Assembly (NCBI RefSeq): GCF_028767125.1
Contig: NZ_JAKCWP010000004.1
Coordinates: 152,001 to 216,000, forward strand
DNA: 64,000 bases
Direction of reading: 5' to 3'
From: Chelativorans sp. YIM 93263
Lineage (GTDB): Bacteria > Pseudomonadota > Alphaproteobacteria > Rhizobiales > Rhizobiaceae
Part shown: piece after piece, positions 18,921 through 34,242 of the stretch
How positions within the stretch are numbered: position 1 is the stretch's first letter
How the letters are laid out: each line of letters starts with the position of its first letter
Notes under the pieces: model-generated
Told to the model about the DNA's origin: nothing
The model's database searches: none
Seen by the model: the letters and a program-made list of their open reading frames with translations, nothing else
Position numbers and translations under genes: made by a program

Positions 18921-19018
18921 ATCTCGTGCGCTTGACTTGCTTCCGCCTGGACGGACTGTGCTATGAACAGCTGATTGCCGTAGAGCGTTTGAGATGATCT
19001 GCCCGAGGCCTTTGAAGC

Positions 19019-20008
19019 ATGACGGAAACCATTGGACGACCGGGTCGGGCGCCACGCCTCCATGAACAGATTGAACGGTTGCTGACGGAAGAAATCTACG
19101 CCGGCCGGTTTACCGAGGGTGACCATCTGACCGAGCAGAGCGTGGCAGAACGGTTTGGCGTAAGTCGCGGTCCCGTGCGTAATGCCTTCCGCAGGCTCGA
19201 AGGCGATGGTCTTCTCAGCCGAAATGCAAGGGGCATGACGGTGGCCGCAATTGGCAGCCGCTCATGGCCAAAGATCGCCTTTGGCGAGCAGGAGCTTTCC
19301 CGCCCGCTCGTAGAGGCGACGGCGAGTTGGGAAGCAATCTACCATGAAGTGGCCGAAGCGGCCGTCATGCACGCGGCCTATGGTGATTGGCGGATTGTCG
19401 AAACAGAGCTTGCGCGGTATTTCGGTGTCAGCCGGACGGTCGCGCGCGAGGTGCTGGCGAGGTTGGAACATCGCGGCATTTTGCGGAAGGATCCGGGACA
19501 CCGCTGGCACCTCCCCAAGCTCGACGAGACGCGCGTGGTCAATCTTTACGAGATGCGTAAACTGCTTGAGCCCGAGGCTCTGGTGCAGGCGGCCGAAAAA
19601 GCGCCGCGCGCGTTTCTCGATGAAATGCGGGGTGGGTTGCTGGCGGCGCTGGAGCATCAGGAGCTTCTGCCTGCAACGGAATTCGACCGGCTGGAGCGGC
19701 AATTGCACGTGGATCTGCTTTCATACGCGCGGAACGATCTGCTGCGCGAGACACTTCACCATTTCCATGCGCTTCTTTTCACCAACGTGAACGTTTATCG
19801 CGCGACCCGGTCCAAGTTCGGCCAGGATCCGTTTCCGGGAGAGCATCTTGAGATCATCGATCGCCTGTTGGATAAAGACTTGCAGTCTGCACGGCGAAAG
19901 ATGTCCGAACACATGGGCATTTCGATCGAGCGTGCTTTGGACCGCCTGGCCTATATGAATGAATGTGTTCCCCTGGAGCAGAAGCCCTATTTGGCACCTT
20001 CGAACTGA
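19019..20008 (+). CDS. GntR-type regulator with two winged-HTH domains
   Basis: A 329-residue regulator with unusual architecture. Residues about 14-76 form a GntR HTH (LTEQSVAERFGVSRGPVRNA). Residues about 105-168 form a second HTH (ETELARYFGVSRTVAREVLA). A helical FCD-like effector domain runs from about 170 to the end. Ordinary FCD regulators have one HTH and about 230 residues. It follows the TRAP genes in the same direction, so it probably controls the sugar-acid/TRAP locus through the GTGTAnAC sites at 13419 and 15836. Inducer unknown, likely a sugar acid or its keto-deoxy derivative. Confidence 0.85.
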   Translation: MTETIGRPGRAPRLHEQIERLLTEEIYAGRFTEGDHLTEQSVAERFGVSRGPVRNAFRRLEGDGLLSRNARGMTVAAIGSRSWPKIAFGEQELSRPLVEATASWEAIYHEVAEAAVMHAAYGDWRIVETELARYFGVSRTVAREVLARLEHRGILRKDPGHRWHLPKLDETRVVNLYEMRKLLEPEALVQAAEKAPRAFLDEMRGGLLAALEHQELLPATEFDRLERQLHVDLLSYARNDLLRETLHHFHALLFTNVNVYRATRSKFGQDPFPGEHLEIIDRLLDKDLQSARRKMSEHMGISIERALDRLAYMNECVPLEQKPYLAPSN

Positions 20009-20237: not shown

Positions 20238-21359
20238 TCACGCCCGGTACAGACTTGCAATATTCGGCTGAATTCCGAGTCCAAATCCATCAGGCGCGCG
20301 CATTTCGCCGCTCGATATCGCCGGCATCATCTCGCTTATATCGTCGCGTAGTGGATTAGGATTGGAGTCTACTTCCAGCAGCCCGTCTCCGCCGAGTGCG
20401 GCCAGGAGATGCCACGAGGCGATCAGGCCGATGCCGCCACCCAGCCAGTGAGGACAGACCGTAAGTCCCGCATCCAAAGCGGCCCCGCCGACCGGAATGC
20501 AGCCGCTGAAGCCGCCCCATTTGGCGATATCCGGTTGCACGTAGCGCGCCACGCCGGCGTTGGTCATTTCCGCGAAAGCAGCGTCGCCGCGAAGGTTCTC
20601 CCCCAGCGCTAACGCTATCGGAGAATTTTCGGCGAGAGCGCGCCAGTCTGCGAGCGGCGCGTCAGCGCGAAGAGGCTCCTCCAACCAGAGGGGGTCGAAC
20701 TCGGACAGGATTCGGCTCATCTCCAGCGCTTCCGCCGCCGTCCATGCCTGGTTTGCATCGACCATGAGCGGAGTCTCAGCGCCGAATGCAGCGCGCAGTG
20801 TCTCCAGGTTACGGACATCGCGCTCGCGACCGAAGCCGACCTTGAGCTTGAACCGGCGATGTCCTTCCGCATGTTTTTCTTCCGCCAGCTTCTCCGGCTG
20901 CGAGGCATTGAGCCCACTTGCGTAAACCGGCAGGCTTTCAACCTCACGTTCCGTGAACAAGCGGTACAGGGGCAACTCCGCCCGCCGTGCAACGAGATCC
21001 CATAGCGCAATATCGACCCCGGCAATCACTTGCGCCAGTGGTCCCGGCTCGCCGCTTTGGATTGCCAGCACCTCCGTGCGCGCCGTCACCTTGGCAAAGG
21101 CATCTCGTGGGGTCTCGAAGGTTTCGCCGACCAGCAATGGAGTAAGCACCGATTGAACGAGCCGCGCCCGATGTGCAGCCCCGACGGTCGGGAAGTTGCA
21201 CCACACCTCACCCCATCCCGAAAACCCGTCCCTGGTTTTCACTTCGACGAAGACTGCGGGTCGGCTGTGCATCTCGCCGAAGGAGGTGACGACCGGATTA
21301 TCGATCGGAACGCGCAGGACGTGAGCCTCAAGGGCTGCAATCTCCACTGACTGATCCAA
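20238..21359 (-). CDS. mandelate racemase / muconate lactonizing enzyme family protein
   Basis: A 373-residue enolase-superfamily enzyme. The N-terminal capping domain contains FGEMHSRPAVFVEVKTRDGF. The barrel carries a KLK motif (RRFKLKVGFGRERD), metal ligands in LMVDANQAW, WLEEPL and LGENLRG, and a late His in CPHWLGGG, so a mandelate-racemase-type acid/base pair is plausible. A TTG start at 21359 is chosen because a perfect aaggaggt lies just upstream; an ATG at 21380 lacks one. It is divergent from the thiamine-diphosphate enzyme at 21504, whose start is also TTG. It may dehydrate or racemise a hydroxy acid such as an aldarate or tartrate; substrate unknown. Confidence 0.85.
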   Translation of the reverse strand: MDQSVEIAALEAHVLRVPIDNPVVTSFGEMHSRPAVFVEVKTRDGFSGWGEVWCNFPTVGAAHRARLVQSVLTPLLVGETFETPRDAFAKVTARTEVLAIQSGEPGPLAQVIAGVDIALWDLVARRAELPLYRLFTEREVESLPVYASGLNASQPEKLAEEKHAEGHRRFKLKVGFGRERDVRNLETLRAAFGAETPLMVDANQAWTAAEALEMSRILSEFDPLWLEEPLRADAPLADWRALAENSPIALALGENLRGDAAFAEMTNAGVARYVQPDIAKWGGFSGCIPVGGAALDAGLTVCPHWLGGGIGLIASWHLLAALGGDGLLEVDSNPNPLRDDISEMMPAISSGEMRAPDGFGLGIQPNIASLYRA

Positions 21360-21380
21360 TGTCCTACCTCCTTGTCTCAT

Positions 21381-21503
21381 ATGCGGGCTTGGCTGTAGAT
21401 TATTTCTATTTTTCTAAAGTTACAAATTTTTGTTTGACATAAATAGTAAATAACATAGGCTTCCTCAGGTGCCGGGGAGAGCACATCCGCAGGGGAGAGC
21501 ACG
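21381..21503. promoter_or_regulatory. AT-rich divergent promoter region with a duplicated SD element
   Basis: This 123-bp spacer is the most AT-rich stretch around, with a TTGACA at 21434-21439 as a possible -35 element; no clean -10 was placed. GGGGAGAGCAC occurs at 21474-21484 and again at 21492-21502, an 18-bp-spaced direct repeat. Only the second copy precedes the TTG start of the thiamine-diphosphate gene. Confidence 0.45.
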
Positions 21504-23147
21504 TTGCTGGCTGCAGAGGGGAATGGAGCATCAGTTCTGACAGAAACGCTCGCGGCTGCGGGTGTGCGGACTGTTTTCAGTCTGTCGGGTAATCAAATCA
21601 TGCCTGTCTATGATGCCTGCATCGATTCCGGCATTCGCATCGTACATGTTCGCCACGAGGCGGCGGCCGTCGCCATGGCGGATGCTCATGCGCAGCTGAC
21701 AGGTGAGATCGGCGTGGCGCTGGTCACGGCTGCGCCTGGGTTCGCCAACGCCCTTTCGCCGCTTTACTCTGCGCGTGCCGCTGAAAGCCCGGTCCTTCTT
21801 TTGAGCGGCGACTCGCCGGTCGAGCAGGACGGCAACGGTGCATTTCAGGAACTGCAGCAGAACGCAGTAGCCGCCCCGCTGGTCAAAGCATCATTGCGCC
21901 CGCTCAAGGCTCGCGATCTTGCGCCGATGACGGCACAGGCGATCAGGCTTTCCCGTTCCGGCCGCAAGGGGCCCGTACACATGGCGTTGCCCTTCGATGC
22001 TCTGAACGCTCGGGATGCTCAGGCTTTCGATGGTGACGCACTTGCGTTCGAGCCTGTACCGATTTCCATGTCTGACGAGGACGTCAGGAAGATTGGCGAG
22101 CTCCTGGACGGAGCGGAGCGTCCACTGGTGCTTCTCGGGCCTCAGTTCAACGAAAGCCGCGAAATGAAGCGGGTGAAGAGCTTGGCCGATGCGCTCAACG
22201 CACCCGCTATTGCCATGGAAAGCCCGCGCGGCTTGCGGGATCCTTCGCTCGGCGCGTTTGCGGAGGTGGTTGCCGAGGCCGATTTGATAATCCTCCTTGG
22301 CAAAACGGTCGATTTCACTCTCGGTTTTCTGAAGCAGGGGGTCATCGCGGCCGATGCCGACATTGTCGTCATCGATCCGGAACACGAGGCGATTGACCGT
22401 GCGAGGACACTGTGCGGGAGCAGGGTTCGCTGCAGTGTAAGAGCGGATGTTGCTTCTGCCGTCGACGGGCTCTCGTCGTTGAGCCGTGCCCACAAGTCGC
22501 CGGAGTGGCGTGAGGTTGTTGCTGAGGCGATCGCCTTTAGGCAGCGCCCGCAGGTTGAAACTTCAGATCTTCATCCGATAGCCGTCTGTGACGCCGTTGC
22601 GGCGGTGCTGCGTGAGGCGGATGAGCCGATACTCATCTGTGATGGCGGAGAGTTCGGCCAATGGGCGCAGGCGTTCTGCAATGCTCCCGTTCGCGTGATC
22701 AACGGGCCGTCGGGGGCGATCGGGAATGGACTCAGCTACGCAATTGCAGCCAAGCTGGCGCGTCCGAAGGCGACCGTCATCGCGATGATGGGGGACGGGA
22801 CCGCTGGTTTTCACCTTGCTGAGTTTGAGACCGCGGCACGCGAAGACGCTGCCATAATTGCCGTCGTGGGCAATGACAGCTGCTGGAATGCCGAGCACCA
22901 GATCCAACTACGCGACTTCGGGCCGGAGCGACTGATCGGCTGCACGCTTTCATCGCGGGTCCGCTACGACCAGGCCGTGGAGGGGCTGGGGTGCCAGGGG
23001 ATTTATGTGGAGCGGCCGAAGGCGCTTTCCGGGGCTCTGCACGAGGCCGTGAACGGCGCACGTCCGGCTCTTGTCAATGTGATCATGGCAGGCGCCCCCG
23101 CGCCCGTCTTTTCGCGAACAGACAACGCTGCGCCATCGGCGCACTAA
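21504..23147 (+). CDS. thiamine-diphosphate-dependent enzyme (acetolactate synthase-like)
   Basis: A 547-residue ThDP enzyme with the three domains of the acetolactate synthase/decarboxylase family. The N-terminal domain has the catalytic Glu in VRHEAAAVAMADAHAQLTGE. A central FAD/nucleotide-like domain lies around residues 190-330. The C-terminal ThDP/Mg domain has the MMGDGTAGFHLAEFETAARE to VVGND motif. The gene starts at TTG, as no suitable ATG exists. Such enzymes decarboxylate or ligate 2-oxo acids. It heads the plus-strand run with succinate-dehydrogenase-like and fumarase-like genes. A role on a 2-oxo acid formed in that pathway is inference; biosynthetic acetolactate synthase is less likely because no small subunit or ilv gene is near. 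Confidence 0.83.
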   Translation: MLAAEGNGASVLTETLAAAGVRTVFSLSGNQIMPVYDACIDSGIRIVHVRHEAAAVAMADAHAQLTGEIGVALVTAAPGFANALSPLYSARAAESPVLLLSGDSPVEQDGNGAFQELQQNAVAAPLVKASLRPLKARDLAPMTAQAIRLSRSGRKGPVHMALPFDALNARDAQAFDGDALAFEPVPISMSDEDVRKIGELLDGAERPLVLLGPQFNESREMKRVKSLADALNAPAIAMESPRGLRDPSLGAFAEVVAEADLIILLGKTVDFTLGFLKQGVIAADADIVVIDPEHEAIDRARTLCGSRVRCSVRADVASAVDGLSSLSRAHKSPEWREVVAEAIAFRQRPQVETSDLHPIAVCDAVAAVLREADEPILICDGGEFGQWAQAFCNAPVRVINGPSGAIGNGLSYAIAAKLARPKATVIAMMGDGTAGFHLAEFETAAREDAAIIAVVGNDSCWNAEHQIQLRDFGPERLIGCTLSSRVRYDQAVEGLGCQGIYVERPKALSGALHEAVNGARPALVNVIMAGAPAPVFSRTDNAAPSAH

Positions 23148-23171
23148 GAGGTTACGAACGAGAAGCACGAG

Positions 23172-23909
23172 ATGTCGACCACGGCCGAAACGGAAAAAAC
23201 GATCTGGGTGCACATCTGGCGCGGCAAGGATGAAGGGCGGCACGTCAGCTACGAAGTGCCGGCGCGCGAGAACCAGACCGTGCTCGATCTGGTGACCGAG
23301 GTGCAGCGCTACCACGAGCCGGCGCTTGCCTATCGGTTTGCCTGCCGGGTCGGCGTCTGTGGTTCCTGCGCCATGACGGTGAATGGACGGCCGCGCTGGA
23401 CCTGCCGTACCCACGTCAAACGCGTGGTGGAGGGCGGCGAGATCACAATCGAGCCGTTGCGAAATATGCCACGCATAAAAGATCTTGCCTGCGATATGGG
23501 CGAGTTCTTCGACAAGTGGCAGAAGGCCGGCGGCAAATTCAAGGGAAAGGCAACCCGCCGTGAGCCGCCCATGGCCGTCGACCCTGAAAGCCGGGAACGC
23601 AAGAATGCCGACGCCGGCATCGAGTGCATCAACTGCGGTGTGTGTTACGCCGCCTGTGATGTGGTGGCCTGGAATAAGGATTATCTCGGCCCGGCGGCGC
23701 TCAATCGCGCATGGACACTGCTCAATGACGAGCGACATGCCGACCACGCGGGTCTTCTCGAGATGGCAACGTCAGAGGGTGGCTGTGCCTCCTGCCACAC
23801 CCAAGGCAATTGCATGACGCATTGTCCTGTCGGCATTTCGCCGACCCGTTCCATCGCTGGGATCAAGAAAATGAGCCTCGTCGACCTCCTCAGGGGGAGG
23901 GCACGATGA
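23172..23909 (+). CDS. succinate dehydrogenase/fumarate reductase-like iron-sulfur subunit
   Basis: A 245-residue SdhB/FrdB-type electron-transfer subunit. The [2Fe-2S] ligands are Cys58, 63, 66 and 78. The [4Fe-4S] ligands are Cys152, 155, 158 and 162 (CINCGVCYAAC). The [3Fe-4S] site uses cysteines among 205, 208, 214 and 218 (CASCHTQGNCMTHC). It passes electrons from the flavoprotein (24595) to the membrane subunits. It overlaps the next gene by 4 bp. The complex is encoded with a fumarase-like enzyme and a tricarboxylate-type transporter, so it is a dedicated catabolic copy rather than the TCA-cycle enzyme. Confidence 0.9.
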   Translation: MSTTAETEKTIWVHIWRGKDEGRHVSYEVPARENQTVLDLVTEVQRYHEPALAYRFACRVGVCGSCAMTVNGRPRWTCRTHVKRVVEGGEITIEPLRNMPRIKDLACDMGEFFDKWQKAGGKFKGKATRREPPMAVDPESRERKNADAGIECINCGVCYAACDVVAWNKDYLGPAALNRAWTLLNDERHADHAGLLEMATSEGGCASCHTQGNCMTHCPVGISPTRSIAGIKKMSLVDLLRGRAR

Positions 23910-24244
23910 TGGAAGCTCGGCTTTTTGCCCTGCAGCGACTGACAGCCATGCTCATGGGCCCGTTCGTGATAGTGCATCTCCTCGTAATTCTGTACGCCGT
24001 GCGTGGCGGTCTGAGTGCGGAGGAAATCCTGGCGCGCACCACGTCGAGCGTGATTTGGCCGCTCTTTTACATGCTGTTTGTCGTCGCCGCAGCGATCCAT
24101 GGGCCCATCGGAATCCGCAACGTGCTGCGTGAATGGAGCCCGCTTCCTTTGCACGTGGGAAACTGGATCGCGGCTCTGTTTGCCGCTGTCCTGCTGGTAT
24201 TGGGATTGCGTGCTGTTTGGGCGATCTCGGGGTGGGCTGGATGA
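23906..24244 (+). CDS. SdhC-like membrane anchor subunit
   Basis: A 112-residue protein with three hydrophobic helices (about residues 12-33, 45-65 and 82-107). His in IVHLLVILY and in AAIHGPIGIRNVLREW are placed like the haem and quinone-site residues of succinate dehydrogenase cytochrome b subunits. The ATG at 23906 overlaps the previous stop; an ATG at 23909 is also possible. It anchors the complex and passes electrons to quinone. Confidence 0.75.
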   Translation: MMEARLFALQRLTAMLMGPFVIVHLLVILYAVRGGLSAEEILARTTSSVIWPLFYMLFVVAAAIHGPIGIRNVLREWSPLPLHVGNWIAALFAAVLLVLGLRAVWAISGWAG

Positions 24245-24591
24245 GACATTCGCCCCGCCGACACAGGAACTATGTCGCTTTCCTCGGGCATCGCCTCTCT
24301 GGGATCGCGCTGGCGATCTTCCTTCCCTTTCATTTCCTGGCTCTGGGGCTGGCACTCGAGGGGGCCGGCAGTTTCGATGCGTTTCTCGCTTTCGCTGACA
24401 TACCCCTCGTCAAGATGGCCGAGTGGGGGCTTGTCGTGCTCCTGGCGCTGCATCTTTTCTTCGGCTTGCGGATACTGGTTCTGGAATTCATGCCCTGGCG
24501 ATCCGATGCCGACGACCGTGCCGGCCTGATCGGTTGGGGTGCCGGCGGTGCACTGGCGCTCGGCCTTGTCTTTCTTCTGGGAGTCTTCTGA
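24241..24591 (+). CDS. SdhD-like membrane anchor subunit
   Basis: A 116-residue protein with three hydrophobic helices. Key segments are GHRLSGIALAIFLPFHFLAL and LVVLLALHLFFGLRILVLEF. The His and Arg residues fit the second haem ligand and quinone region of the Sdh family. Its ATG overlaps the previous stop (ATGA). Together with the 23906 product it gives a two-subunit, six-helix anchor. Confidence 0.72.
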   Translation: MRHSPRRHRNYVAFLGHRLSGIALAIFLPFHFLALGLALEGAGSFDAFLAFADIPLVKMAEWGLVVLLALHLFFGLRILVLEFMPWRSDADDRAGLIGWGAGGALALGLVFLLGVF

Positions 24592-24594
24592 GCG

Positions 24595-26340
24595 ATGCGC
24601 ATCGAACGCTCCAAAACGGACATTTTGATTCTGGGCACGGGCGGTGCCGGCCTTTTCGCGGCCTTGCACGCCAAGCAGGCCGACCCGGATTGCGAAGTGA
24701 CTCTGGTTGCAAAAGGACTGCTCGGTAAATCCGGCTGCACACGCATGGTGCAAGGCGGCTACAATGTCGCGCTCGGCGAGGGTGACAGCATCGAGCGGCA
24801 TTTCATGGACACGATCCACGGCGGCAAATGGCTGCCCCGCCAGGACCTGGCGTGGCGGCTGTGTGTCGGCGCGGTCGAGCGCGTTCGCGAGCTGGAGAAC
24901 GAGGTCGGATGCTTCTTCGATCGCAACCCTGACGGCACGCTTCACCAGAAGGCCTTCGCCGGGCAGACCTTCGACCGTACGGTTCACAAATCCGACCTCA
25001 CCGGCATCGAAATCATCAACCGGCTGATGGAGCAGGTCTGGAATCTCGGCGTTGAAAAGCTGGAGGAACATCGCGCCATCGAGCTGATCCCGGCCAAGGA
25101 TGGCAGCGGAGTCGCTGGCGTTTTGTTGATCGACATCCGCGAAGGTGTCTACCGCTTTGTGCAGGCACGGGCGGTGCTCCTGGCGACCGGCGCCGGGCCG
25201 ACGATGTATCTCTACCACACGCCGTCAGGCGACAAGACCTGCGACGGACTGGCCATGGCCTTGCGTTACGGACTGAAACTGCGCGACATGGAAATGGTGC
25301 AGTTTCATCCGACAGGCCTGCTCGGCGGATTGCGCACACGCATGACCGGCACCGTGCTTGAAGAAGGGTTGCGCGGTGCTGGCGGCCATCTCCTAAACGT
25401 CGACGGCGAACGTTTCATGACGCGCTATGATCCGCGCGGCGAGCGCGCCACGCGCGATGTGGTCAGTCGTGGCATCTATGCCGAAATGCGGGCCGGACGA
25501 ACGACGCCAATGAATGGTGTCTACATCAAGATGAGCCATCTCGGCCCGGAAAATGTGAGACGCATGTTCCCGGGCATGGTCAAGCGCTGTGCCGATTCCG
25601 GCTTCGACCTGGCGGGCGGGGTCGTGGAGGTGGTGCCGACCGCGCACTACCTCATGGGCGGCGTCGAGTTTGAAGTCGACGCATCAACGGCCTCACCTGG
25701 GCTTTTCGCAGCCGGGGAAGATTGCGGCGGAGTTCACGGCGCCAATCGCCTTGGCGGAAACGGTGTCGCCAATTCCACTGTTTTTGGAGGAATCGCAGGC
25801 GATTCCATGGCCCAGTTCGTTCGCGATGGGGCGCCGCTGCGCGATCCTGACGAGACGGTGATCGATGAGGGCATCGCGCGAGCCGAAGTGCCCTTCGGGC
25901 AAAAGAGGGGCGATCTCTTCGAGCTGCGCGAGCGGCTTTCGCAGGCCATGTGGGACGACGTCGGAGTGATGCGGGACGCAGCCGGCATCGCGCGCGGCAA
26001 GGCGAAACTCGTCGAACAGACAGATGAACTCGACGGTTGCGGCCTGCCCGACGGTGACCGCACCTTCAATCTCACATGGCACGACTGGCTCAATATGAAG
26101 AGCCTGACGATGATCTCGGAAGTCATTGCCACGGCGGCCGAGGCGCGCACGGACAGTCGCGGTGCCCACTACCGGGAGGACTTTCCGGAAACGGGTGACC
26201 TGGAAACAACCGCCTATACAAGCGTGTCGCTGCAAGACGGGAAGCCGCGTGTCGAAATGGTTCCGGTCGATTTTTCCGTCGTCAAGCCAGGGGAAACACT
26301 CATCGAGGACGAGCCTGCCGGGAAATCGGCGGTCGCGTAG
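24595..26340 (+). CDS. succinate dehydrogenase/fumarate reductase-like flavoprotein lacking the FAD-linking His
   Basis: A 581-residue flavoprotein subunit. The FAD Rossmann motif is LGTGGAGLFAAL (about residues 13-24). The dicarboxylate-site residues of the family are present: the His of MVQFHPTGL, the Arg of RATRDVVSR, the His of TAHYLMGGVEF and the Arg of GANRLGGNGV. In SdhA/FrdA the FAD is covalently bound to the His of SHTVAAxGG; here the aligned segment is GCTRMVQGG, with Cys48 at that position. FAD is therefore probably bound non-covalently. Published mutants of FrdA/SdhA lacking this His keep fumarate reduction but lose succinate oxidation. The enzyme may therefore work as a reductase or on a substrate easier to oxidise. 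Confidence 0.88.
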   Translation: MRIERSKTDILILGTGGAGLFAALHAKQADPDCEVTLVAKGLLGKSGCTRMVQGGYNVALGEGDSIERHFMDTIHGGKWLPRQDLAWRLCVGAVERVRELENEVGCFFDRNPDGTLHQKAFAGQTFDRTVHKSDLTGIEIINRLMEQVWNLGVEKLEEHRAIELIPAKDGSGVAGVLLIDIREGVYRFVQARAVLLATGAGPTMYLYHTPSGDKTCDGLAMALRYGLKLRDMEMVQFHPTGLLGGLRTRMTGTVLEEGLRGAGGHLLNVDGERFMTRYDPRGERATRDVVSRGIYAEMRAGRTTPMNGVYIKMSHLGPENVRRMFPGMVKRCADSGFDLAGGVVEVVPTAHYLMGGVEFEVDASTASPGLFAAGEDCGGVHGANRLGGNGVANSTVFGGIAGDSMAQFVRDGAPLRDPDETVIDEGIARAEVPFGQKRGDLFELRERLSQAMWDDVGVMRDAAGIARGKAKLVEQTDELDGCGLPDGDRTFNLTWHDWLNMKSLTMISEVIATAAEARTDSRGAHYREDFPETGDLETTAYTSVSLQDGKPRVEMVPVDFSVVKPGETLIEDEPAGKSAVA

Positions 26341-26345
26341 CGAGG

Positions 26346-27320
26346 ATGCGTCACATGATAGCCAACAGAAAAATCGAGGAAGCTGCATATCAGATCATGA
26401 CGAATGCAGCGATCGACATACCGCAGGATTACCTCGACGGGATCAAGGGAATGATCGACCTGGAGCAGGGCGATCTCTCGGCATTCGTGCTTCAATCGAT
26501 GGTCGACAACTGGGAAGCGGCGACGGAGGATCGCCGCCCCATGTGCGCCGATACCGGTCTGCCCCGATACTACGTAAAGGTCGGCAATGAAGCACGAGTG
26601 GACGCCGGATTCGTGGGTATCGAGAAATCCCTGCGCTCGGCGACCGCACGTGCGACGAATGACGTGCCTTTGCGGCCAAACCGCGTGCATCCGCTCTGGC
26701 GCACGGAGCACAACAACAATGTCGGGATTAATGCGCCGGAGGTCGAATGGAGCTTTGAGCCCGGCGCCGACTGGGTCGACATCACGACCGTGCACAAGGG
26801 CGGGCTCTTCGGAACCGATTACCGCATGCTGTTTCCTGGCGACGGGATCGATGGGATCAAGCGCTTCTATCTCGACACGTTGATCGCCTTCGGAAAGCGC
26901 GGTCTTGCCTGCCAGCCGGCCATCGTCGGTGTCGGCCTTGGAGGTTCGAAGGACACCTGCATGCAACTGGGCAAGCAGGCGGCCTGCTTGCGGACTGTGG
27001 GGGACCGGAATCCGGATCCCGAGATCGCAGCGCTGGAGAAAGAGCTCAAGGAAATCGGCAACAAAATCGGCATGGGCGCCATGGGCTTTATTGGCTCGTC
27101 AATGGTGGTCGATTGTCATATCGAGGTGGGCCACACCCATACCGGAGGCATGCCGATGTCGGTCCACACATTTTGCCTCAGCTCGCGCCGGGCGACCGCC
27201 CGCATCTATGCCGACGGATCGATTGCGTACCGCACCGATCCGCAATGGTTCACGCCTTACATGCGAAGGGAGACGATCGGATGGGAAACCGCCGAGGAAA
27301 TCTCAAGCAATTCCGCTTGA
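26346..27320 (+). CDS. class I fumarase / tartrate dehydratase alpha subunit
   Basis: A 324-residue alpha subunit of a two-subunit Fe-S hydro-lyase (fumarase class I, L-tartrate dehydratase or mesaconase type). The cluster ligands are Cys67 (MCADTG), Cys205 (GGSKDTCMQ) and Cys277 (VHTFCLSSRR), and HIEVGHTHTGGMPMSV is the conserved substrate region. It follows the flavoprotein gene by 5 bp and overlaps the beta subunit gene by 40 bp. It would hydrate the unsaturated dicarboxylate made, or dehydrate the hydroxy acid used, by the Sdh-like complex. Fumarate itself, mesaconate and tartrate are all possible. Confidence 0.9.
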   Translation: MRHMIANRKIEEAAYQIMTNAAIDIPQDYLDGIKGMIDLEQGDLSAFVLQSMVDNWEAATEDRRPMCADTGLPRYYVKVGNEARVDAGFVGIEKSLRSATARATNDVPLRPNRVHPLWRTEHNNNVGINAPEVEWSFEPGADWVDITTVHKGGLFGTDYRMLFPGDGIDGIKRFYLDTLIAFGKRGLACQPAIVGVGLGGSKDTCMQLGKQAACLRTVGDRNPDPEIAALEKELKEIGNKIGMGAMGFIGSSMVVDCHIEVGHTHTGGMPMSVHTFCLSSRRATARIYADGSIAYRTDPQWFTPYMRRETIGWETAEEISSNSA

Positions 27321-27961
27321 AGCTACCCGTAACTGCGGAAGATCTGGCGCAGCTCGAACCGGGCGCGGTCGTGTTCCTCGACGGTGTCGTCTATACGGCG
27401 CGCGAGGGCGTCTACAAGCGCGTGCTTGAGGACAAACAAGACCTGCCGCTCGATCTCACTGCGGTCAGCAATGTCAACTTCCACTGCTCTCCGGCAGCGG
27501 CGCCTGACGCGGAGGGCTCTTATCGCATCGGTGGTGTTACGGCGACGGCGAGTTTCCGGTTTTCCAAATGGATGGATGAGTGGCTGACACGCACGGGCAC
27601 AAAGATCATCATAGGCAAGGGCGGCATGCCACGCGAAGCCTATTGCGACATTCTCGTGCCACATGGTGCCGTTTATCTCACCACGGTTGGTTACGGCACC
27701 GGCGCGCTGCTCGGCCGCGGCATAAAACGGGTGCGCGACGTCCATTGGCTCGATGACCTCGGCATAGCGCAGGCGATGTGGCTTTTCGAGGTGGAGAATT
27801 TCGGTCCGTTCATCGTCGACAGCGATCTCAACGGAAATTCTCTCTTTGCCGCGCACGGCGACGAAATCAATGCAGGCCTCGCACATCTTTACGAGGGGCT
27901 TCGTCCGCCGGCACTGCGCCGCTACGGGGAGACCGACGATCGTAAGCGAGAGGTAATGTAG
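27281..27961 (+). CDS. class I fumarase / tartrate dehydratase beta subunit
   Basis: A 226-residue partner of the 26346 product, matching the C-terminal domain of class I fumarases. Family blocks are GAVVFLDGVVYTAREGVYKR, GTKIIIGKGGMPREAYCDIL, GAVYLTTVGYGTGALLGRGI and the late FIVDSDLNGNSLF. The longer frame to 27113 is antisense-like shadow; ATG 27281 gives the standard start. The 40-bp overlap with the alpha gene points to coupled translation of an alpha-beta enzyme. Confidence 0.9.
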   Translation: MGNRRGNLKQFRLKLPVTAEDLAQLEPGAVVFLDGVVYTAREGVYKRVLEDKQDLPLDLTAVSNVNFHCSPAAAPDAEGSYRIGGVTATASFRFSKWMDEWLTRTGTKIIIGKGGMPREAYCDILVPHGAVYLTTVGYGTGALLGRGIKRVRDVHWLDDLGIAQAMWLFEVENFGPFIVDSDLNGNSLFAAHGDEINAGLAHLYEGLRPPALRRYGETDDRKREVM

Positions 27962-28050
27962 CTTGCGACGATCTTCGGGCAGAGGCCCGAGCCGACGCTG
28001 CGGGAGGCAGCAAACACACAAAATCCAAGTTCAAAAAATGGGAGGAACGC

Positions 28051-29031
28051 ATGAGAGTAAACGCATTCATCATTTCGCTGGGCGCGGCCGCGCTGGCCGC
28101 ATCCTCGGCACTGGCTCAGGACTATCCGAGCCAGCCCATCCAGTTGGTGATCCCCTATGGCGCCGGCGGCGCAACCGACCTTTCGGCGCGTGCCCTATCG
28201 AACGCTCTGACTCCAATCCTTGATAGACCGCTTGTTCTCGCCAATCGGACGGGTGCTGGCGGTGCGACCGGTTCGGCAGCAGTCGCCAACGCCGACGGGG
28301 ACGGATATACGATGCTGGCAGCGCGGGTCGGTTCCCATACGGTCAATCCGGCCATGAAGGAGACACTGCCTTACACACTGGACGATTTCCGCTTCGTCGG
28401 CGTCTATGAAATCAACCCGGTGGTCTGTGCCGTACGCGCTGGCTCCGAAATCGATTCCATGGAGGCCCTTGTCCAGCAGGTGCAGGAAAACCCCGGCACC
28501 GTCAGCTTCAGCAGCTCCGGCGTAGGCTCAATGCTGCATCTGGCCGGAGCCATGGTGCTCGACGCATTCGGTGTGGAAAATCCGCTGGAAAACGCAACGC
28601 ACATTCCGATGGGCGGCGGCGGCGAAGCGGCGACCGCGGTCCTGCAGGGTACGGCCACCTTCGTGTGCACCAATTCCTCGGCCTTGGCGAGCTTCGTCTC
28701 GAACGATCAGTTGCAGCCGATCATGGTCACCACCCCGGAGCCGCTCGAAGGTTTTGACGCACCGACCGCGGCCTCACTTGGCCACCCTGAACTGGAGCAG
28801 CTCGTCGGTTGGACCGGGATTGCCGGGCCGGCCGATCTCAGCGACGAGGCGGCCGAGGCTTGGGGTGAGTGGCTGGAGCAGGCCACGCAGAACGAGGAAT
28901 TCCTCGCCTATATGAAAAAGATTGGCTCACAGGTCGATCTGATGAGCCCGGAGGAATCTGTGGAATTCGTCAACGCGCAGTACGAGACCTTCCGCAAGCT
29001 CGTAGATGACCTCGACATGCGTGTCGAATAG
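28051..29031 (+). CDS. TctC-family (Bug) substrate-binding protein
   Basis: A 326-residue periplasmic binding protein of the tripartite tricarboxylate transporter family. The signal peptide spans about residues 1-24 (AAALAASSALAQ), then YPSQPIQLVIPYGAGGATDL, the classical Bug-protein opening. The mRNA has a strong Shine-Dalgarno (gggagg). It supplies the TctBA permease encoded next. It probably binds the di- or tricarboxylate handled by the Sdh-like/fumarase genes. Confidence 0.92.
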   Translation: MRVNAFIISLGAAALAASSALAQDYPSQPIQLVIPYGAGGATDLSARALSNALTPILDRPLVLANRTGAGGATGSAAVANADGDGYTMLAARVGSHTVNPAMKETLPYTLDDFRFVGVYEINPVVCAVRAGSEIDSMEALVQQVQENPGTVSFSSSGVGSMLHLAGAMVLDAFGVENPLENATHIPMGGGGEAATAVLQGTATFVCTNSSALASFVSNDQLQPIMVTTPEPLEGFDAPTAASLGHPELEQLVGWTGIAGPADLSDEAAEAWGEWLEQATQNEEFLAYMKKIGSQVDLMSPEESVEFVNAQYETFRKLVDDLDMRVE

Positions 29032-29043
29032 GTGATCATGCTG

Positions 29044-29069
29044 TGCGCCGGCCTTTCCGGGCCGGCGCA
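29044..29069 (+). terminator. hairpin after the TctC gene
   Basis: TGCGCCGGCC and its exact complement form a 10-bp stem with a 6-nt loop, followed by TTTCG. It sits in the 69-bp gap between the binding-protein and TctB genes, the same place as the hairpin in the TRAP operon. It is probably a partial terminator or 3'-end stabiliser for the binding-protein mRNA. Confidence 0.6.
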
Positions 29070-29100
29070 TTTCGCCACGAGTTGAGGAGGAGGTCCGCCG

Positions 29101-29589
29101 ATGCTGTCCAGGCGCATCGAGATCGGGATTGGCGTCGTCACCGCCGTGCTGGCGCTGTTGATCCTGTTCGTAGCCATACCGTTTGGAATCGTGACGCCTA
29201 AAAACGTGCGATCGCTTGTTCTGTCGCCGACGTTTTGGCCGACCATTCTCGGCATCGCATTGTTCCTGATAGGCGCGTCCCTTGCTGTTCGCGCCTATTT
29301 CGGGTTCGGCAGAGCGGCGGTGAAGGAGTTCCCGAGCTTCGATCGCGCGTCGCTCCTGCGTCTCGCCGCCTTCATTGGCGTGATCGTCTTTTACTATATC
29401 TTGATCGCGCCCCTCGGCATGGTCTGGGCCTCGATGCTGGCGTTCGCAGCCATTCTGTACGTTACGCGCGCTGGCGAGCGCCTTACCGGATTGATCTGCG
29501 CCATTGCGCTGCCGCTTCTTCTCTACGCGTTCTTCTTCCATGTCGCGGGCGTACCGATCCCGCAAGGTGAACTGGTGAGGCTGCCATGA
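29101..29589 (+). CDS. TctB-family transporter small subunit
   Basis: A 162-residue membrane protein with four predicted helices (around residues 7-28, 42-63, 82-103 and 128-148). A typical TctB hydrophilic loop lies after the second. It is the small subunit of the tripartite tricarboxylate transporter and pairs with the large subunit, whose gene starts within its last codons (ATGA at 29586). Confidence 0.85.
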   Translation: MLSRRIEIGIGVVTAVLALLILFVAIPFGIVTPKNVRSLVLSPTFWPTILGIALFLIGASLAVRAYFGFGRAAVKEFPSFDRASLLRLAAFIGVIVFYYILIAPLGMVWASMLAFAAILYVTRAGERLTGLICAIALPLLLYAFFFHVAGVPIPQGELVRLP

Positions 29590-31106
29590 CCTTTATGGAT
29601 TCGCTCGCGGCCGGGCTCGCGCTCGTCCTTCAATGGCAGAGCTTCGCCTGCCTGGCCGGCGGTGTGGCGATCGGCGTCTTCGCCGGGGCGATCCCTGGCA
29701 TGTCGGCCACCATGGCTGTGGCGCTGACCTTGCCCTTCACCTTTGCCATGCAGCCGATTTTCGGCATTCTTCTCCTGCTCGGCGTGTACAAGGGTGGCAT
29801 CTTCGGCGGCTCGATACCTGCCATCCTGATCCGCACTCCAGGGACGCCGGCCTCCTCGGCAACGGCTCTTGATGGCTACCCGATGGCGGAGAAGGGCGAG
29901 GCCGGCCGCGCGCTTGGCATGGCGCTCTACGCCTCCTGCATTGCCGATTTCATTTCCAATCTGTCGCTCATCCTGATTGCAGGCTGGTTGGCCTCCTTTG
30001 CGCTCAATTTCGGCCCGCCGGAGTTTTTCACCCTCATCGTATTTTCCCTCACGATTATCGCGGGTGTCTCGGGTGACAGCCTACTCAAGGGCGGCGTGAG
30101 CGCGATTCTCGGCTTATTGCTGGCGACAATCGGGCTCGATCTCGTCTATGGCACCAACCGTTTCATCTTTGGCTCGACTGATCTGATGGGCGGGCTCAAT
30201 TTCATAGCGGTCCTGATCGGGCTTTTCGCTCTGCCCGAGATCTTCTCCTTCATCCATCGGCCGAAAGAGCTTGACGGTAGTGTGCGTCGGCTCGGGAACG
30301 ATCACATAACTTTCGCGGATCTCCGCCACAGCTTCAAATCGATCATTCGCGGCAGCTTTATCGGCGTCTTCCTGGGGTCGATCCCGGGAATTGGCGCCGC
30401 GCCTTCCGCATTTCTGTCTTATGCTGAGGCACGACGGAATTCGCCCAATAAGGCGAACTTCGGCCAGGGTGAGATTGAGGGTGTCGCTGCCTCTGAGGCC
30501 GGCAACAACGGCGTGGCGGGTTCCACTCTCATCCCACTGCTCGCGCTGGGTGTGCCGGGCGACGTGATCACGGCGATCATCATCGGAGCCTTCATGGTGC
30601 ATGGACTACAGCCGGGTCCGATGATGTTCACCACCAACACCGATATCATCTATGCCATATTCATGGGGCTAGTGATGAGCTCCCTGATCCTGCTGGTTGT
30701 CGGCGGGGTGGCCATCCGCGGCTTTCGCTATATCGCCGACGTGCCACGCTCAATTCTCTTCCCCGGCGTGCTGGTGCTCTGCGTCTTTGGTGTCTATGCG
30801 GTCAATAATGCGATCTTCGATGTCGCCGTCATGTTCGTCATGGGCGCGCTCGGCTATGCCATGGCGCTTTTCAAGTTACCGCCAGCCCCTTTCGTGATCG
30901 CCTTCATTCTCGGGCCTCTTCTCGAGAACAATTTCCGCCAGGCTATGCTGATGTCGCAGGGATCTCTCGACATCCTTGCGCGCGGGCCGATCACCTGGTT
31001 TTTCTGGGCGCTGACGGCGCTTGCCATAGCGCTGATCGTCAAAGGCGCTCTTCATCCGGGCGAAGAGGTTGAGCAGGAAGTGATTGCATCAAAGTCGGCC
31101 AAATGA
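29586..31106 (+). CDS. TctA-family transporter large subunit
   Basis: A 506-residue multi-helix permease. Family signatures are AGAIPGMSATMAVALTLPFT near the N-terminus, GSIPAILIRTPGTPASSATA, and in the second half GSIPGIGAAPSAFLSYAEAR followed by GVPGDVITAIIIGAFMVHG. It forms the transport path of the TctABC system driven by ion gradients. The 4-bp overlap with tctB and the binding-protein gene upstream show a complete transporter. Confidence 0.93.
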   Translation: MTFMDSLAAGLALVLQWQSFACLAGGVAIGVFAGAIPGMSATMAVALTLPFTFAMQPIFGILLLLGVYKGGIFGGSIPAILIRTPGTPASSATALDGYPMAEKGEAGRALGMALYASCIADFISNLSLILIAGWLASFALNFGPPEFFTLIVFSLTIIAGVSGDSLLKGGVSAILGLLLATIGLDLVYGTNRFIFGSTDLMGGLNFIAVLIGLFALPEIFSFIHRPKELDGSVRRLGNDHITFADLRHSFKSIIRGSFIGVFLGSIPGIGAAPSAFLSYAEARRNSPNKANFGQGEIEGVAASEAGNNGVAGSTLIPLLALGVPGDVITAIIIGAFMVHGLQPGPMMFTTNTDIIYAIFMGLVMSSLILLVVGGVAIRGFRYIADVPRSILFPGVLVLCVFGVYAVNNAIFDVAVMFVMGALGYAMALFKLPPAPFVIAFILGPLLENNFRQAMLMSQGSLDILARGPITWFFWALTALAIALIVKGALHPGEEVEQEVIASKSAK

Positions 31107-31167
31107 ATCTGCTTTGGTCTATCGCTTCTTACGCGGCTCTCGACTTGAAATCTGCCGATGATCTGAC

Positions 31168-31932
31168 ATGAATCTCTTCGCCGACCTTACCAACCTCGAT
31201 GTCGCCACCATCGCGGCAATTTTCCTGCTTGGCGGACTCGTGAAGGGCGCGCTCGGCTTCGGGTTGCCATTGGTAACTATGTCCATCCTGCCCCTCATCG
31301 TCAGCGTGGAGTTTGCGCTCGCGATCAATGCGCTTGTCCTGCCGTTTACGAACGTGAAGCAGTTCTTCGGAGCAGCGTGCATGCGTGAAACAGTCTGGCG
31401 CTTCCGATACGTGCTGGGCGGCATTGTCGTCGGCGTGCCGATCGGTGCCGTGCTCGTCAGCATAATCACCGATCAGGTTCTCATGTTATCGTTGGGCATC
31501 TCGATTATCTGTTTCGTCGTGCTGACCATCGCTTCGCCCGAGTTAAAGGTTCCGAGGCGGCACGATAACGAAATTGCAGGCGCGGTGGGCCTCCTCGGCG
31601 GCATCGTTGGTGCGCTGACGACCGCGAACGGACCGATTTTTCTGATGCACCTCGTAGCGATGAAGGTCGAGCGCACGATGTTCATCTCCGCGCTCGGTCT
31701 GCTTTTTATCGTCTCCGGAGTGTTGATTTCCGGGGCGTTTTGGCTGGCAGGCCTGATGGACGCGGCGCGCGTTGCTGTCGCCGCGATCTCCCTGCCTGCA
31801 GCCCTGGCGGGAATGAGCGCAGGGGACGTCGTCGGGCAGCATATCCCGGCAGAGATATTTCGGCGTATTGTTATTGGGGTATTGTGCCTGCTTGCGCTCA
31901 ACCTCATCTTGCGGGGACTTGCGGGTTCTTGA
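31168..31932 (+). CDS. TauE/SafE-family membrane protein
   Basis: A 254-residue, roughly eight-helix protein of the sulfite exporter TauE/SafE family. The LGGLVKGALGFGLPLVTMSI segment near the N-terminus and LLGGIVGALTTANGPIFLMH in the second half are the two family repeats. Some relatives export sulfite, sulfoacetate or organic acids, and many are uncharacterised. Its place after the TctABC genes suggests export of a by-product of the pathway. A sulfonated or other anionic product is possible but not shown. Confidence 0.82.
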   Translation: MNLFADLTNLDVATIAAIFLLGGLVKGALGFGLPLVTMSILPLIVSVEFALAINALVLPFTNVKQFFGAACMRETVWRFRYVLGGIVVGVPIGAVLVSIITDQVLMLSLGISIICFVVLTIASPELKVPRRHDNEIAGAVGLLGGIVGALTTANGPIFLMHLVAMKVERTMFISALGLLFIVSGVLISGAFWLAGLMDAARVAVAAISLPAALAGMSAGDVVGQHIPAEIFRRIVIGVLCLLALNLILRGLAGS

Positions 31933-31940
31933 GGTAAACC

Positions 31941-32837
31941 GTGGATGTGAAATCGCTCTACACTTTCACCGCTGTTGTTGACCACGGTAGCTTTGCCGAG
32001 GCCGCAAATGCGTTGGGAATGTCGATTTCAAGCATCAGCGTACAAATGCGGGCGTTGGAGCAGGACGTCGGGCTTCTTCTTTTTGACCGCAGTCGCCGGC
32101 CACCCGTTCTTACGTCGGAGGGGTACGAGTTTGCCGAGCAGGCGCGGGATGTCATCAAAAGCTGGGAGCAACTCAGCGAAAACCTGAAGCGGCGGGGCAA
32201 TGCTGGCGTGCTGAAGGTTGGTGCCGTGCACACCGCGGTTGCCGGGGTCGTACCGCCCGCACTGTTGCGTTTGCGCCAGACCGTACCGGAACTCAGCATT
32301 AGGCTTTCCACGGGTCTTACGCATGAGCTGGAGGTCGCGCTGCGTGCTGGTCGCATCGATGCCGCGATCATTACCGAGCCGGAAGCGATGGCACCGAACA
32401 TGACCTTTCGCGCCTTCTGCGCTGAACCGCTCGTCGTCATCGCACATGAGGAGGCAACCGGTGGCGATTTCCGCGAAATCCTCGAAAATAATCCTTATGT
32501 CCGCTTCAGCCGGATGGCGCGGGTAGCCAATCTCATCGAGGCCCGACTGCAAGAACTCGGAATCGAGGTCACCTCCCACATGCAGGTGGATAGCCTGGAA
32601 GGCGTCATTTCACTCGTCGGTTCAGGCCTCGGTGTCTCCATCGTGCCTTACCGGCGGGGAGGCGAGCCTCTCGGAGAGCAGGTGAAGGTTTATCCGTTAG
32701 GAACGACCCCCACCTACCGGCGTCTGGGCCTGCTGATGGATACGAATAATGCCAGGCAGCGCTTTGCGGACCAGCTTTTTAGCGCGCTAAGCGCCGAAGC
32801 CGAGGAGGCGGAAAAGCGTCAATCCTTTCGCTTCTAA
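31941..32837 (+). CDS. LysR-family transcriptional regulator
   Basis: A 298-residue LysR protein starting at GTG 31941, 8 bp after the TauE gene. The HTH is in SFAEAANALGMSISSISVQM, and the effector domain has AGRIDAAIITEPEA. It is the last gene of the apparent long operon, co-directional rather than divergent. It may therefore control the whole set from the promoter near 21381-21503. Inducer unknown, likely a dicarboxylate. Confidence 0.88.
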   Translation: MDVKSLYTFTAVVDHGSFAEAANALGMSISSISVQMRALEQDVGLLLFDRSRRPPVLTSEGYEFAEQARDVIKSWEQLSENLKRRGNAGVLKVGAVHTAVAGVVPPALLRLRQTVPELSIRLSTGLTHELEVALRAGRIDAAIITEPEAMAPNMTFRAFCAEPLVVIAHEEATGGDFREILENNPYVRFSRMARVANLIEARLQELGIEVTSHMQVDSLEGVISLVGSGLGVSIVPYRRGGEPLGEQVKVYPLGTTPTYRRLGLLMDTNNARQRFADQLFSALSAEAEEAEKRQSFRF

Positions 32838-33104: not shown

Positions 33105-34085
33105 TCAGTCCGTCATCTTCACTGTCTCGTCGAGAAAGTCGTTGGTGTAGACGCTGGTGACGTCGAAAGGGGACTCGATGCCGAAATAAGTTTCGACCAT
33201 CTCGTAATCCTCCTGCATACGCGCAGGATCGAAAGCTCCGAGAGCGACAGAGGTGGTTGTCGGGTCGGTCATGAGTTCCTTGATCCGATTCCACTGGTCG
33301 CGCTGGTTGTCCCGCTCGAGACCGGAAACGTTGTTCATCAACGAGTCGAGGCACGGCTCGAAATCCTCAACGCATGATTTGAAAGCGCGCTGCGTCACCT
33401 TGGTGAAGTCTTCGACAGTCTCGCGGTTTTCCTCGAGATAGTCTGCGTTGACGATCACCGAGTTTCCGTAAGGATTGATGCCGATGTCGCGCCAGGCCAC
33501 GAAGCCCAGATCGTCGCCGAACTCACGCAGCTTCAGGTCATGCTCGTTGTAGAAATCGCTGGTGATGTCGATGGCGCCGCTCTTCAGCGAAGCGAGCTTC
33601 GCCTGAGGGCTGACATTGACGAAGCTGACCGAATCGGGGTCCAGCCCCACCACTTCCGCGAACATCGGCCACATGACCCGCGAGGCATCGGCCGGTGGAT
33701 TGCCGATCGTCCGCCCAGCAAAATCTTCCGGTCCGCTGATGCCGTTGCTTTTCAGCCAGTAGAATCCTTGCGGCGAATTCGCATAGACGGTCATGACGGC
33801 GACGGTGTCGGCGCCCTTGCTCTTGGCGACGAGCGAAGTGGCCATATCCGCCACGCCCATTTGCGACCTGCCGGCGCCGACGCGCTGTGCAGCGGCGCCG
33901 GATCCGCTCCCCGGCTCGATGGCAAGTGTGATTCCGGCATCCTCATACCAGCCCAATTCCTTGGCGTAGAAGTAGGGCGCGTGGTCCGCCGTCGGGACCC
34001 AGTTGAGGATGAAGTTGATGTCTTTCGCTGACGCGGCACCTGGGAAAAGTACGGCCGCGGCGGCCAGATACAACAGATGTTTCAA
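33105..34085 (-). CDS. ABC transporter substrate-binding protein (NMT1/THI5-like)
   Basis: A 326-residue periplasmic binding protein. The signal peptide lies at residues 1 to about 20 (LLYLAAAAVLFPGAASA), followed by INFILNWVPTADHAPYFYAK, the typical opening of NMT1/THI5-like proteins. These bind pyrimidines, riboflavin, nitriles or sulfonate-like ligands. GAGRSQMGVADMATSLVAKS is a second block. It is transcribed away from the TetR gene but belongs with the permease (34992) and ATPase (38813). No TPP riboswitch is seen upstream, arguing against thiamine-precursor control. Confidence 0.87.
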   Translation of the reverse strand: MKHLLYLAAAAVLFPGAASAKDINFILNWVPTADHAPYFYAKELGWYEDAGITLAIEPGSGSGAAAQRVGAGRSQMGVADMATSLVAKSKGADTVAVMTVYANSPQGFYWLKSNGISGPEDFAGRTIGNPPADASRVMWPMFAEVVGLDPDSVSFVNVSPQAKLASLKSGAIDITSDFYNEHDLKLREFGDDLGFVAWRDIGINPYGNSVIVNADYLEENRETVEDFTKVTQRAFKSCVEDFEPCLDSLMNNVSGLERDNQRDQWNRIKELMTDPTTTSVALGAFDPARMQEDYEMVETYFGIESPFDVTSVYTNDFLDETVKMTD

Positions 34086-34218
34086 AGCAGTCTCCTTGGC
34101 TGGCTGTGAGTGGTTTTGCTTGACACCTCACCCGAACCGGTTTTCTCACGCCGCTCGGGATCCACGGGGGAGATCGTAAGAAAACGATATCCATTCGAAC
34201 CTATTTAATCAATACTGA

Positions 34219-34234
34219 AACCAACCGGTTGGTT
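34219..34234. promoter_or_regulatory. perfect palindrome, probable TetR operator
   Basis: AACCAACCGGTTGGTT is a perfect 16-bp palindrome in the spacer between the binding-protein gene and the TetR gene, 9 bp before the latter. A 13/16 copy lies at 34905, before the permease operon. The position and duplication strongly suggest the binding site of the TetR product. Confidence 0.7.
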
Positions 34235-34242
34235 GAGAGAGG

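Follow-up and report, generated by a model that had tools for sequence, protein, structure and literature searches.

The DNA considered here (the window) is a 64,000-nucleotide stretch of Chelativorans sp. YIM 93263 that carries, between positions 20238 and 32837, a gene cluster built around a paralogue of respiratory complex II and a paralogue of class I fumarase; the cluster is real and conserved, and probably a mislabelled sulfonate module. Pfam and NCBIfam domain matches recovered every gene named in a preliminary description of this DNA, complete and in the order given there: a gene of the mandelate-racemase (MR) family and, divergent from it across 123 bases, a run encoding a thiamine diphosphate (ThDP)-dependent enzyme, SdhB, SdhC, SdhD, SdhA, FumA, FumB, TctC, TctB, TctA, TauE and LysR. 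From the ThDP gene through the LysR gene the intergenic gaps range from -4 to +89 bases and the pairs SdhB/C, SdhC/D, FumA/B and TctB/A overlap, so that a single ThDP-LysR transcript is likely, as predicted from spacing. A promoter and terminator scan was uninformative (3 and 14 sites vs 3.4 and 11.2 in shuffles).

The core genes are all on the plus strand. The SdhB-like iron-sulfur (FeS) subunit (23172-23909; Fer2_3 and Fer4, with TIGR00384, dhsB-type, above cut-off) is followed by two membrane anchors with Sdh_cyt above cut-off, SdhC-like (112 aa, 23906-24244, an open frame from the ATG at 23906) and SdhD-like, a cytochrome b subunit (116 aa, 24241-24591), and by the SdhA-like flavoprotein (24595-26340; FAD_binding_2 and Succ_DH_flav_C), the proposed 3-sulfopropanoate (3-SP) dehydrogenase. 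The class I fumarase alpha-like subunit, FumA (26346-27320; Pfam Fumerase, TIGR00722 above cut-off), is the proposed sulfoacrylate hydratase, and its beta-like partner, FumB (27317-27961; Fumerase_C above cut-off, TIGR00723 below it), starts at a TTG at 27317 that overlaps the FumA stop. The 90-aa open reading frame list has no separate row for SdhC and gives SdhD as an overlong frame (24133-24591); among the 118 core loci of relatives, a small frame occupies the SdhC position in 92 and SdhD was found by tblastn in 111. Also on the plus strand follow the tripartite tricarboxylate transporter (TTT) genes TctC (binding protein, 28051-29031; Pfam TctC, with solved relatives of the Bug family), TctB (29101-29589; Pfam TctB) and TctA (29586-31106; Pfam TctA, 74% identical to TctA of a Sulfitobacter cluster), a TauE/SafE-family exporter predicted to act on sulfite or a sulfonate (31168-31932; Pfam TauE, only 23-26% identical to three TauE references) and a LysR-type regulator (31941-32837; HTH_1 and LysR_substrate, 33% identical to the annotated LysR of a Paracoccus cluster).

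The complex belongs to the complex II superfamily, its flavoprotein, FeS subunit and membrane anchors being encoded side by side. It shares with respiratory complex II (SdhCDAB / FrdABCD) the grouping of these subunits with two Sdh_cyt-type anchors, and differs from it as a separate paralogue with Cys for His, Glu for Thr and a sulfonate gene context. All 118 SdhA relatives share three features: Cys in place of the His that binds flavin adenine dinucleotide (FAD) covalently, Glu in place of the Thr on the substrate side, and always an R or a K within a loop that exceeds the E. coli SdhA one by six residues. The other substrate-site His and Arg positions are retained; the roles given here to these residues are those known for the family. 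Lacking the FAD His and the full substrate set with Thr, the protein is not a succinate dehydrogenase proper by its residues, and among NCBIfam models it scores best with that of the fumarate reductase TfrA, at 470.9 bits against a cut-off of 718.

The hydro-lyase has the class I fumarase fold, a Fumerase alpha subunit with three cysteines and a Fumerase_C beta subunit, and the three cysteines, which we take to be iron-sulfur cluster ligands, are kept in 109/109 FumA relatives retained for the count. Split subunits and conserved cysteines are shared with class I [4Fe-4S] fumarases and L(+)-tartrate dehydratases; the differences are the sulfonate context, the existence of two subtypes and scores of both subunits below the NCBIfam fumarase and tartrate dehydratase equivalog cut-offs (FumA: PRK06246 205.5 of 276 bits, PRK08230 160.9 of 365; FumB: PRK06043 123.7 of 269 bits, PRK08228 111.9 of 264). 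The second fumarase type, found in some loci with the same kind of SdhA, shares 36% (alpha) and 32% (beta) identity with that of the window. A class III CoA transferase was seen in 9/125 loci (L086, L087, L089, L093, L098, L103, L106, L109 and L147; 62-100% identical to the L098 copy), and in Roseovarius nubinhibens ISM (L103:12729-13865) it sits between FumA and FumB.

The genome of the window (27 contigs, 99.99% complete) has a second SdhA at C1:361 kb, which lies in a frame of 612 aa, shows about 33% identity to the cluster SdhA and keeps the usual ITEG in its substrate site, together with a partially matching 534-aa frame that is perhaps NadB. Its other fumarases are a class I enzyme (532-aa frame) and three frames of the FumC superfamily. 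Since this second SdhA and the other fumarases lie elsewhere in the genome, the cluster is a paralogous set distinct from the succinate dehydrogenase and fumarase of the tricarboxylic acid (TCA) cycle, as expected for the dedicated pathway that had been suggested from the sequence alone.

In a sample of 385 genomes of the class, SdhA (E 1e-100 or better) was found in 32, that of the window included, the 31 others being 61-78% identical; the neighbourhoods of all 31 were taken. A scan of named genomes covered the best 80 of at least 578 SdhA relatives, among which FumA was found beside SdhA in 78, FumB in 74, LysR in 55, TauE in 50, TctC, TctB and TctA in 27 each, ThDP in 17, NIPSNAP in 9, YeiH in 6, MR in 5, and SuyA and SuyB in 2 each (at least 35% identity; lower bounds, several contigs being short). 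SdhB-C-D-A plus FumA-FumB is the usual core, part of which is absent from some loci within the stretch examined, and chance assembly is excluded because the gene order is conserved. The co-conservation of ten genes, raised earlier as a check, holds for SdhBCDA-FumAB, often with TauE and LysR, and fails for the transporter, which may be of the TTT, ATP-binding cassette (ABC), tripartite ATP-independent periplasmic (TRAP) or DctA type, and for ThDP and MR, which are optional (ThDP in 23/118 loci with an identity threshold of 40%, MR in 6/118). Plasmids carry the core in Paracoccus, Sulfitobacter, Methylobacterium, Cupriavidus and Pseudomonas, with remoter copies in Rhodococcus and haloarchaea, and the core may be mobile. 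On a plasmid of Pseudorhizobium NT-26 (L202:1-13396) it adjoins type IV secretion genes. A contig labelled Oceanobacillus sp. HTM 045 (L150) has a cluster SdhA 79% identical to a Sulfitobacter one, by mislabelling, contamination or transfer, and an aconitase X gene lies near the core in 5/125 loci (L049, L057, L060, L062, L204).

The neighbours of the core are genes of sulfite and sulfonate metabolism, which bears out the earlier remark that TauE leaves room for a sulfonated compound. Within 10 kb of the clusters of relatives, annotated plasmids among them, lie TauE and YeiH exporters and the sulfite dehydrogenases SorA, SorT and SoxC; plasmid cores are also near hydroxyacid dehydrogenase, Ldh-family oxidoreductase and TTT genes and UxaA-family pairs. 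At least one sulfite or sulfonate marker was found in 56/83 core loci of at least 19 kb (none in 27) and in 0/20 control stretches (arbitrary 20-kb stretches from seven carrier contigs), a contrast flattered by the drawing of marker references from core loci. Over the 118 core loci the counts were TauE 65, ThDP 28, SuyA 6, SuyB 6, YeiH 9 and LysR 66, each 0/20 in the controls, which contained TctA (2), TctC (1), ABC ATPase (3) and methylmalonate-semialdehyde dehydrogenase (MMSDH, 1). In L123 SuyA-SuyB-type genes lie directly upstream and run into SdhBCDA-FumAB, in L041 they are next to SdhB, in L056 and L073 they are a few kb from the core, and L124 has the order SuyAB-type pair, YeiH, core, YeiH, NIPSNAP, ABC, TauE, ComC type, SlcC type. 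Among 72,556 plasmid records, SdhA was found in 18, the SuyB type in 13 and both in 6. Rhodococcus jostii has SdhBA, second-type FumAB and a SuyA-like stretch, with a SuyB type about 20 kb off. In the haloarchaeal loci L074 and L201, SdhAB has as neighbours UxaA pairs, TauE and a gene of the argH family.

The haloarchaeal argH-family gene (L074:8284-9786, L201:8218-9720) occupies the place of the bacterial class I fumarase. With 323.3 bits the L074 protein exceeds the argH cut-off of 279.5, and it also matches the coenzyme-M enzyme XcbC, of a family that makes sulfoacrylate, at 256.9 bits against a cut-off of 575; it may be a sulfoacrylate-handling enzyme there.

Some clusters include genes that could act ahead of the core. 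The Loktanella locus L128 has the order succinate-semialdehyde-type aldehyde dehydrogenase (SSADH type), Zn alcohol dehydrogenase, SdhBCDA, FumAB; the same two enzymes are near the core in L145 and L135, and an annotated succinate-semialdehyde dehydrogenase lies in the NT-26 cluster surroundings. At 45% identity or more, the SSADH type is in 7/125 loci and the Zn alcohol dehydrogenase in 13/125 (L128 counted in both), with none in the 20 controls. GabT and GabD can help convert homotaurine, the sulfonate analogue of gamma-aminobutyrate (GABA), to 3-SP, according to PMC5320631, and the two dehydrogenases fit a step from semialdehyde to 3-SP ahead of the core. A CoA-acylating MMSDH type lies by the core in Cupriavidus and Pseudomonas (L068 near 5.6 kb, L072:13415-14905, L205:4.1-5.6 kb) and would suit a malonate semialdehyde product; such a route, to which hydration at the sulfonated carbon would lead, was retained as a minor variant only, few loci having the MMSDH type.

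Elsewhere in the genome of the window (C1:683 kb, the L182 run), SuyA, SuyB, TctC-A-B, SlcC, ComC and YeiH types lie in one run, with identities to core-linked relatives of 65% (SuyA), 64% (SlcC), 56-59% (ComC) and 59% (YeiH), and 79% and 92% for SuyB to those of L073 and L123; the names SuyA, SuyB, SlcC and ComC are without support from any library model. A SorT on contig C12 scores above cut-off (613.7 vs 570 bits). Given what is known of the family, we take UxaA-type pairs of this kind to be SuyAB. We infer this label also from gene company like that in PMC12421959, which describes sulfolactate degradation by SuyAB-SlcC-ComC and lists Sinorhizobium mexicanum as a SuyB carrier; this species has a plasmid-borne SuyB match of 92.6%. 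Gene types taken to be those of that route are present here and linked in relatives, with the difference that the cluster would add a new upstream arm supplying sulfolactate.

The SuyB type is present in 34/385 genomes, and together with SdhA in 20 vs 2.8 expected (Fisher 1.6e-16, kinship ignored). Xsc (E 1e-150) is present in 13/32 SdhA-positive genomes vs 34/353 others, and either SuyB or Xsc in 26/32 vs 43/353. A search of the window's genome found no Xsc above the TIGR03457 cut-off (best 305.5 vs 676.4 bits), for which reason a sulfoacetaldehyde exit through Xsc was rejected in this genome; the six named genomes searched alongside each have an Xsc over cut-off. A galactarate-dehydratase-like gene in the window itself (13479-15056) was not taken as a sulfo-lyase, because its score, 330.8 bits against a cut-off of 730.85, is that of a UxaA/GarD relative and a closer SuyB type lies at C1:683 kb.

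3-SP is succinate with a sulfonate for one carboxylate, and in the same way sulfoacrylate corresponds to fumarate and sulfolactate to malate. The simplest fit is an operon whose complex II and fumarase paralogues deliver their product to a sulfo-lyase, and with moderate confidence we propose that the cluster serves the respiratory oxidation of 3-SP and mirrors, for a sulfonate, the arc from succinate to malate. Substrate, direction, product and stereochemistry are what we infer in this scheme: TctCBA would import the sulfonate; the membrane-bound SdhBCDA-like complex would remove two hydrogens from 3-SP, giving 3-sulfoacrylate and passing electrons to quinone; the FumAB-like hydro-lyase would add water to give 3-sulfolactate; the SlcC/ComC-SuyAB-type enzymes encoded elsewhere in the genome would convert this to pyruvate and sulfite; and sulfite would leave via TauE/YeiH or be oxidised by SorT. 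The order of import, redox at a C-C bond and water addition outlined in the preliminary description is supported.

Published data bear on this proposal at two points. PMC11489063, which cites the Mayer thesis, states that R. nubinhibens ISM breaks 3-SP down by way of sulfoacrylate and sulfolactate, the same three compounds as proposed here, and this reported 3-SP degrader has the cluster at locus L103 in the order TauE-LysR-TctCBA-SdhBCDA-FumA-CoA transferase-FumB. The same text reports 3-SP from homotaurine and from anaerobic breakdown of sulfoquinovose and 2,3-dihydroxypropane-1-sulfonate (DHPS), and leaves open how sulfite-reducing bacteria dissimilate it. In PMC12421959, an 11-tag Paracoccus cluster, MDP0926751-0926761, with TauE as the seventh tag, assigned to 'fumarate and tartrate metabolism', was raised on sulfofucose and read as Krebs cycle. 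The eleven genes of P. onubensis, with TauE seventh, are SdhB, C, D, A, FumA, FumB, TauE, LysR and three ABC genes, and the sulfofucose-raised cluster is probably this one. In the open-access literature searched, most subscription papers lying outside our scope, no description of such a gene set and no printed gene assignment for 3-SP degradation was found.

The two remaining enzymes are candidates for a side branch or for feeding in a related sulfonate, and stand outside the main assignment. The ThDP-dependent enzyme (547 aa, 21504-23147, plus strand, putative listed start TTG; Pfam TPP_enzyme N/M/C) has 2-hydroxyacyl-CoA lyases and benzaldehyde lyase as nearest solved relatives. It shares with 2-hydroxyacyl-CoA lyases the WNxE motif, present in 23/23 ThDP relatives retained for the count, and differs in falling under the cut-off of all 25 best NCBIfam models (top, acetolactate synthase, 289.9 of 587 bits; the 2-hydroxyacyl-CoA lyase equivalog NF058623, 251.1 of 600 bits). 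Of the 8 genomes (among 385) that have the enzyme, 7 also have the cluster-type SdhA, and it is present in 9 of the 11 loci with a sulfite-oxidase-like gene of the P0004 type (at least 45% identity, no evident signal peptide, below family cut-offs). In R. nubinhibens the ThDP and P0004-type pair lies away from the core, in P. seriniphilus ThDP is accompanied by its own TauE and LysR, and in Variovorax by neither. A place for the enzyme in sulfonate metabolism is therefore probable. The MR enzyme (380 aa, 20238-21380, minus strand; Pfam MR_MLE_N and MR_MLE_C) has as nearest solved chain 3ddm, named just 'putative', and is 48% identical to an MR gene adjoining FumB on a Sulfitobacter plasmid; our guess is that it racemises or dehydrates a sulfonated acid.

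Several points weigh against the 3-SP assignment. The Thr-to-Glu change adds a negative charge with no obvious fit to a sulfonate, and the longer SdhA loop is partly present in a mycobacterial Sdh (7d6v). 3-SP gives the MR enzyme no need and the ThDP enzyme no clear need, and a Variovorax ThDP relative is without annotated Sdh-like genes or TauE nearby. Further downstream, the SuyAB-type proteins are galactarate/altronate dehydratase domains to Pfam and NCBIfam and UxaA family hydrolases in the records, the ComC-type (Ldh-family) protein reaches 201.7 bits vs the 500-bit sulfolactate dehydrogenase cut-off, the SuyB type lies within the examined stretch in just 6/118 loci, and at the thresholds applied SuyB and Xsc are both absent from six SdhA-positive genomes (G053, G080, G194, G205, G287, G366). 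The co-occurrence p-values ignore kinship, and the marker contrast is flattered as described. We know of no place for 3-SP on the sulfofucose route, and PMC12421959 once writes the TauE tag as MDP0926575. The main doubt concerns direction. The cluster flavoprotein is without the His of covalent-FAD succinate dehydrogenases, and in known complex II enzymes non-covalent FAD, with this His absent, goes with fumarate reduction; a reverse direction is therefore conceivable. The Cys could either bind FAD covalently or leave it free, and free FAD would favour reduction.

In such a reversal, which we consider unlikely, FumAB would remove water from (S)-sulfolactate, and the sulfoacrylate formed would be reduced to 3-SP by the Sdh-like complex; the replaced His and the TfrA match speak for it, as does the raising of the probable Paracoccus cluster on sulfofucose, whose route passes sulfolactate (PMC12421959). 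Against it stand the reported degradation of 3-SP by R. nubinhibens (PMC11489063) and the importers, SSADH-type and alcohol dehydrogenases, which would feed 3-SP inward. Many carriers among the best 80 of at least 578 relatives, moreover, belong to the Roseobacter group or Paracoccus, bacteria that are mostly aerobic. A sulfosuccinate pathway seems slightly less improbable: MR would interconvert enantiomers, the Sdh-like complex would form sulfofumarate and the Fum-like enzyme would add the OH of water to the sulfonated carbon, giving sulfite and oxaloacetate. This would combine dicarboxylate-type enzymes with a TTT importer and a sulfite exporter, would suit MR enzymes, which abstract alpha protons next to a carboxylate, and would account for the six genomes with neither SuyB nor Xsc; yet several loci have SuyAB-, SlcC- and ComC-type genes in the vicinity of the core, which indicates a C3 product, the SSADH-type enzyme of some clusters indicates 3-SP, and MR is rare, so that the C3 sulfonate suits the neighbour genes better.

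Sulfite export genes would suit any sulfite releaser, and another sulfur acid, 3-sulfinopropanoate or a sulfonated analogue of itaconate or mesaconate, might be suggested by the class III CoA transferase that separates FumA from FumB at some loci and by a CitE/RipC-like gene in L143; we think this quite improbable, as the known 3-sulfinopropanoate route requires CoA activation and no hydratase, and the linkage to SuyAB-type genes argues the other way. Least probable of all is that the substrate is a dicarboxylate without sulfur (mesaconate, methylsuccinate, tartrate), with the UxaA-type genes in sugar-acid breakdown. Fumarate, mesaconate, tartrate and substituted succinates had been named as possible substrates, and the enzyme families alone permit them, as do the library names of the UxaA-type genes (galactarate/altronate dehydratase), but TauE, YeiH, SorA, SorT and SoxC as neighbours of the orthologues speak against them.

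A broader extension of the 3-SP proposal is speculative and, in our judgement, rather unlikely as a whole. In bacteria and some haloarchaea the cluster would form part of a complete sulfonate shadow of the GABA shunt and half the TCA cycle, leading from alcohol or amine through semialdehyde, 3-SP and sulfoacrylate to sulfolactate; at each step the enzyme would be a paralogue of the one that handles the corresponding carboxylate. The ThDP variant, with the class III CoA transferase and the sulfite-oxidase-like protein in some clusters, would be a second exit, splitting activated sulfolactate into formyl-CoA and sulfoacetaldehyde.

At lower coordinates than the MR gene, a separate cluster (11543-20008) comprises an Ldh_2 dehydrogenase, an SDR, the fused UxaA/galactarate-dehydratase-like gene (below cut-off), a TAXI-TRAP transporter and a GntR regulator; its family mix resembles that beside haloarchaeal SdhAB, and a sulfonate link is possible. 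On the 3' side of LysR (33105-39604) lie an NMT1/THI5-like binding protein, a TetR regulator, an ABC permease and ATPase, and epimerase, GNAT and DHDPS-like genes.

The chemistry of 3-SP degradation is known in outline, and its gene set, spread and likeness to the TCA arc are without assignment in the open-access literature covered. If the proposal is true, it would supply genes for a sulfur-cycle step so far known mainly as chemistry, make the 3-SP step searchable by a recognisable gene set (32/385 genomes of the class, plasmids, haloarchaea) and provide a paralogue of complex II that acts on a sulfonate. It would also correct records that name these genes succinate dehydrogenase or fumarase, including what is probably a misreading in a published proteome (PMC12421959).

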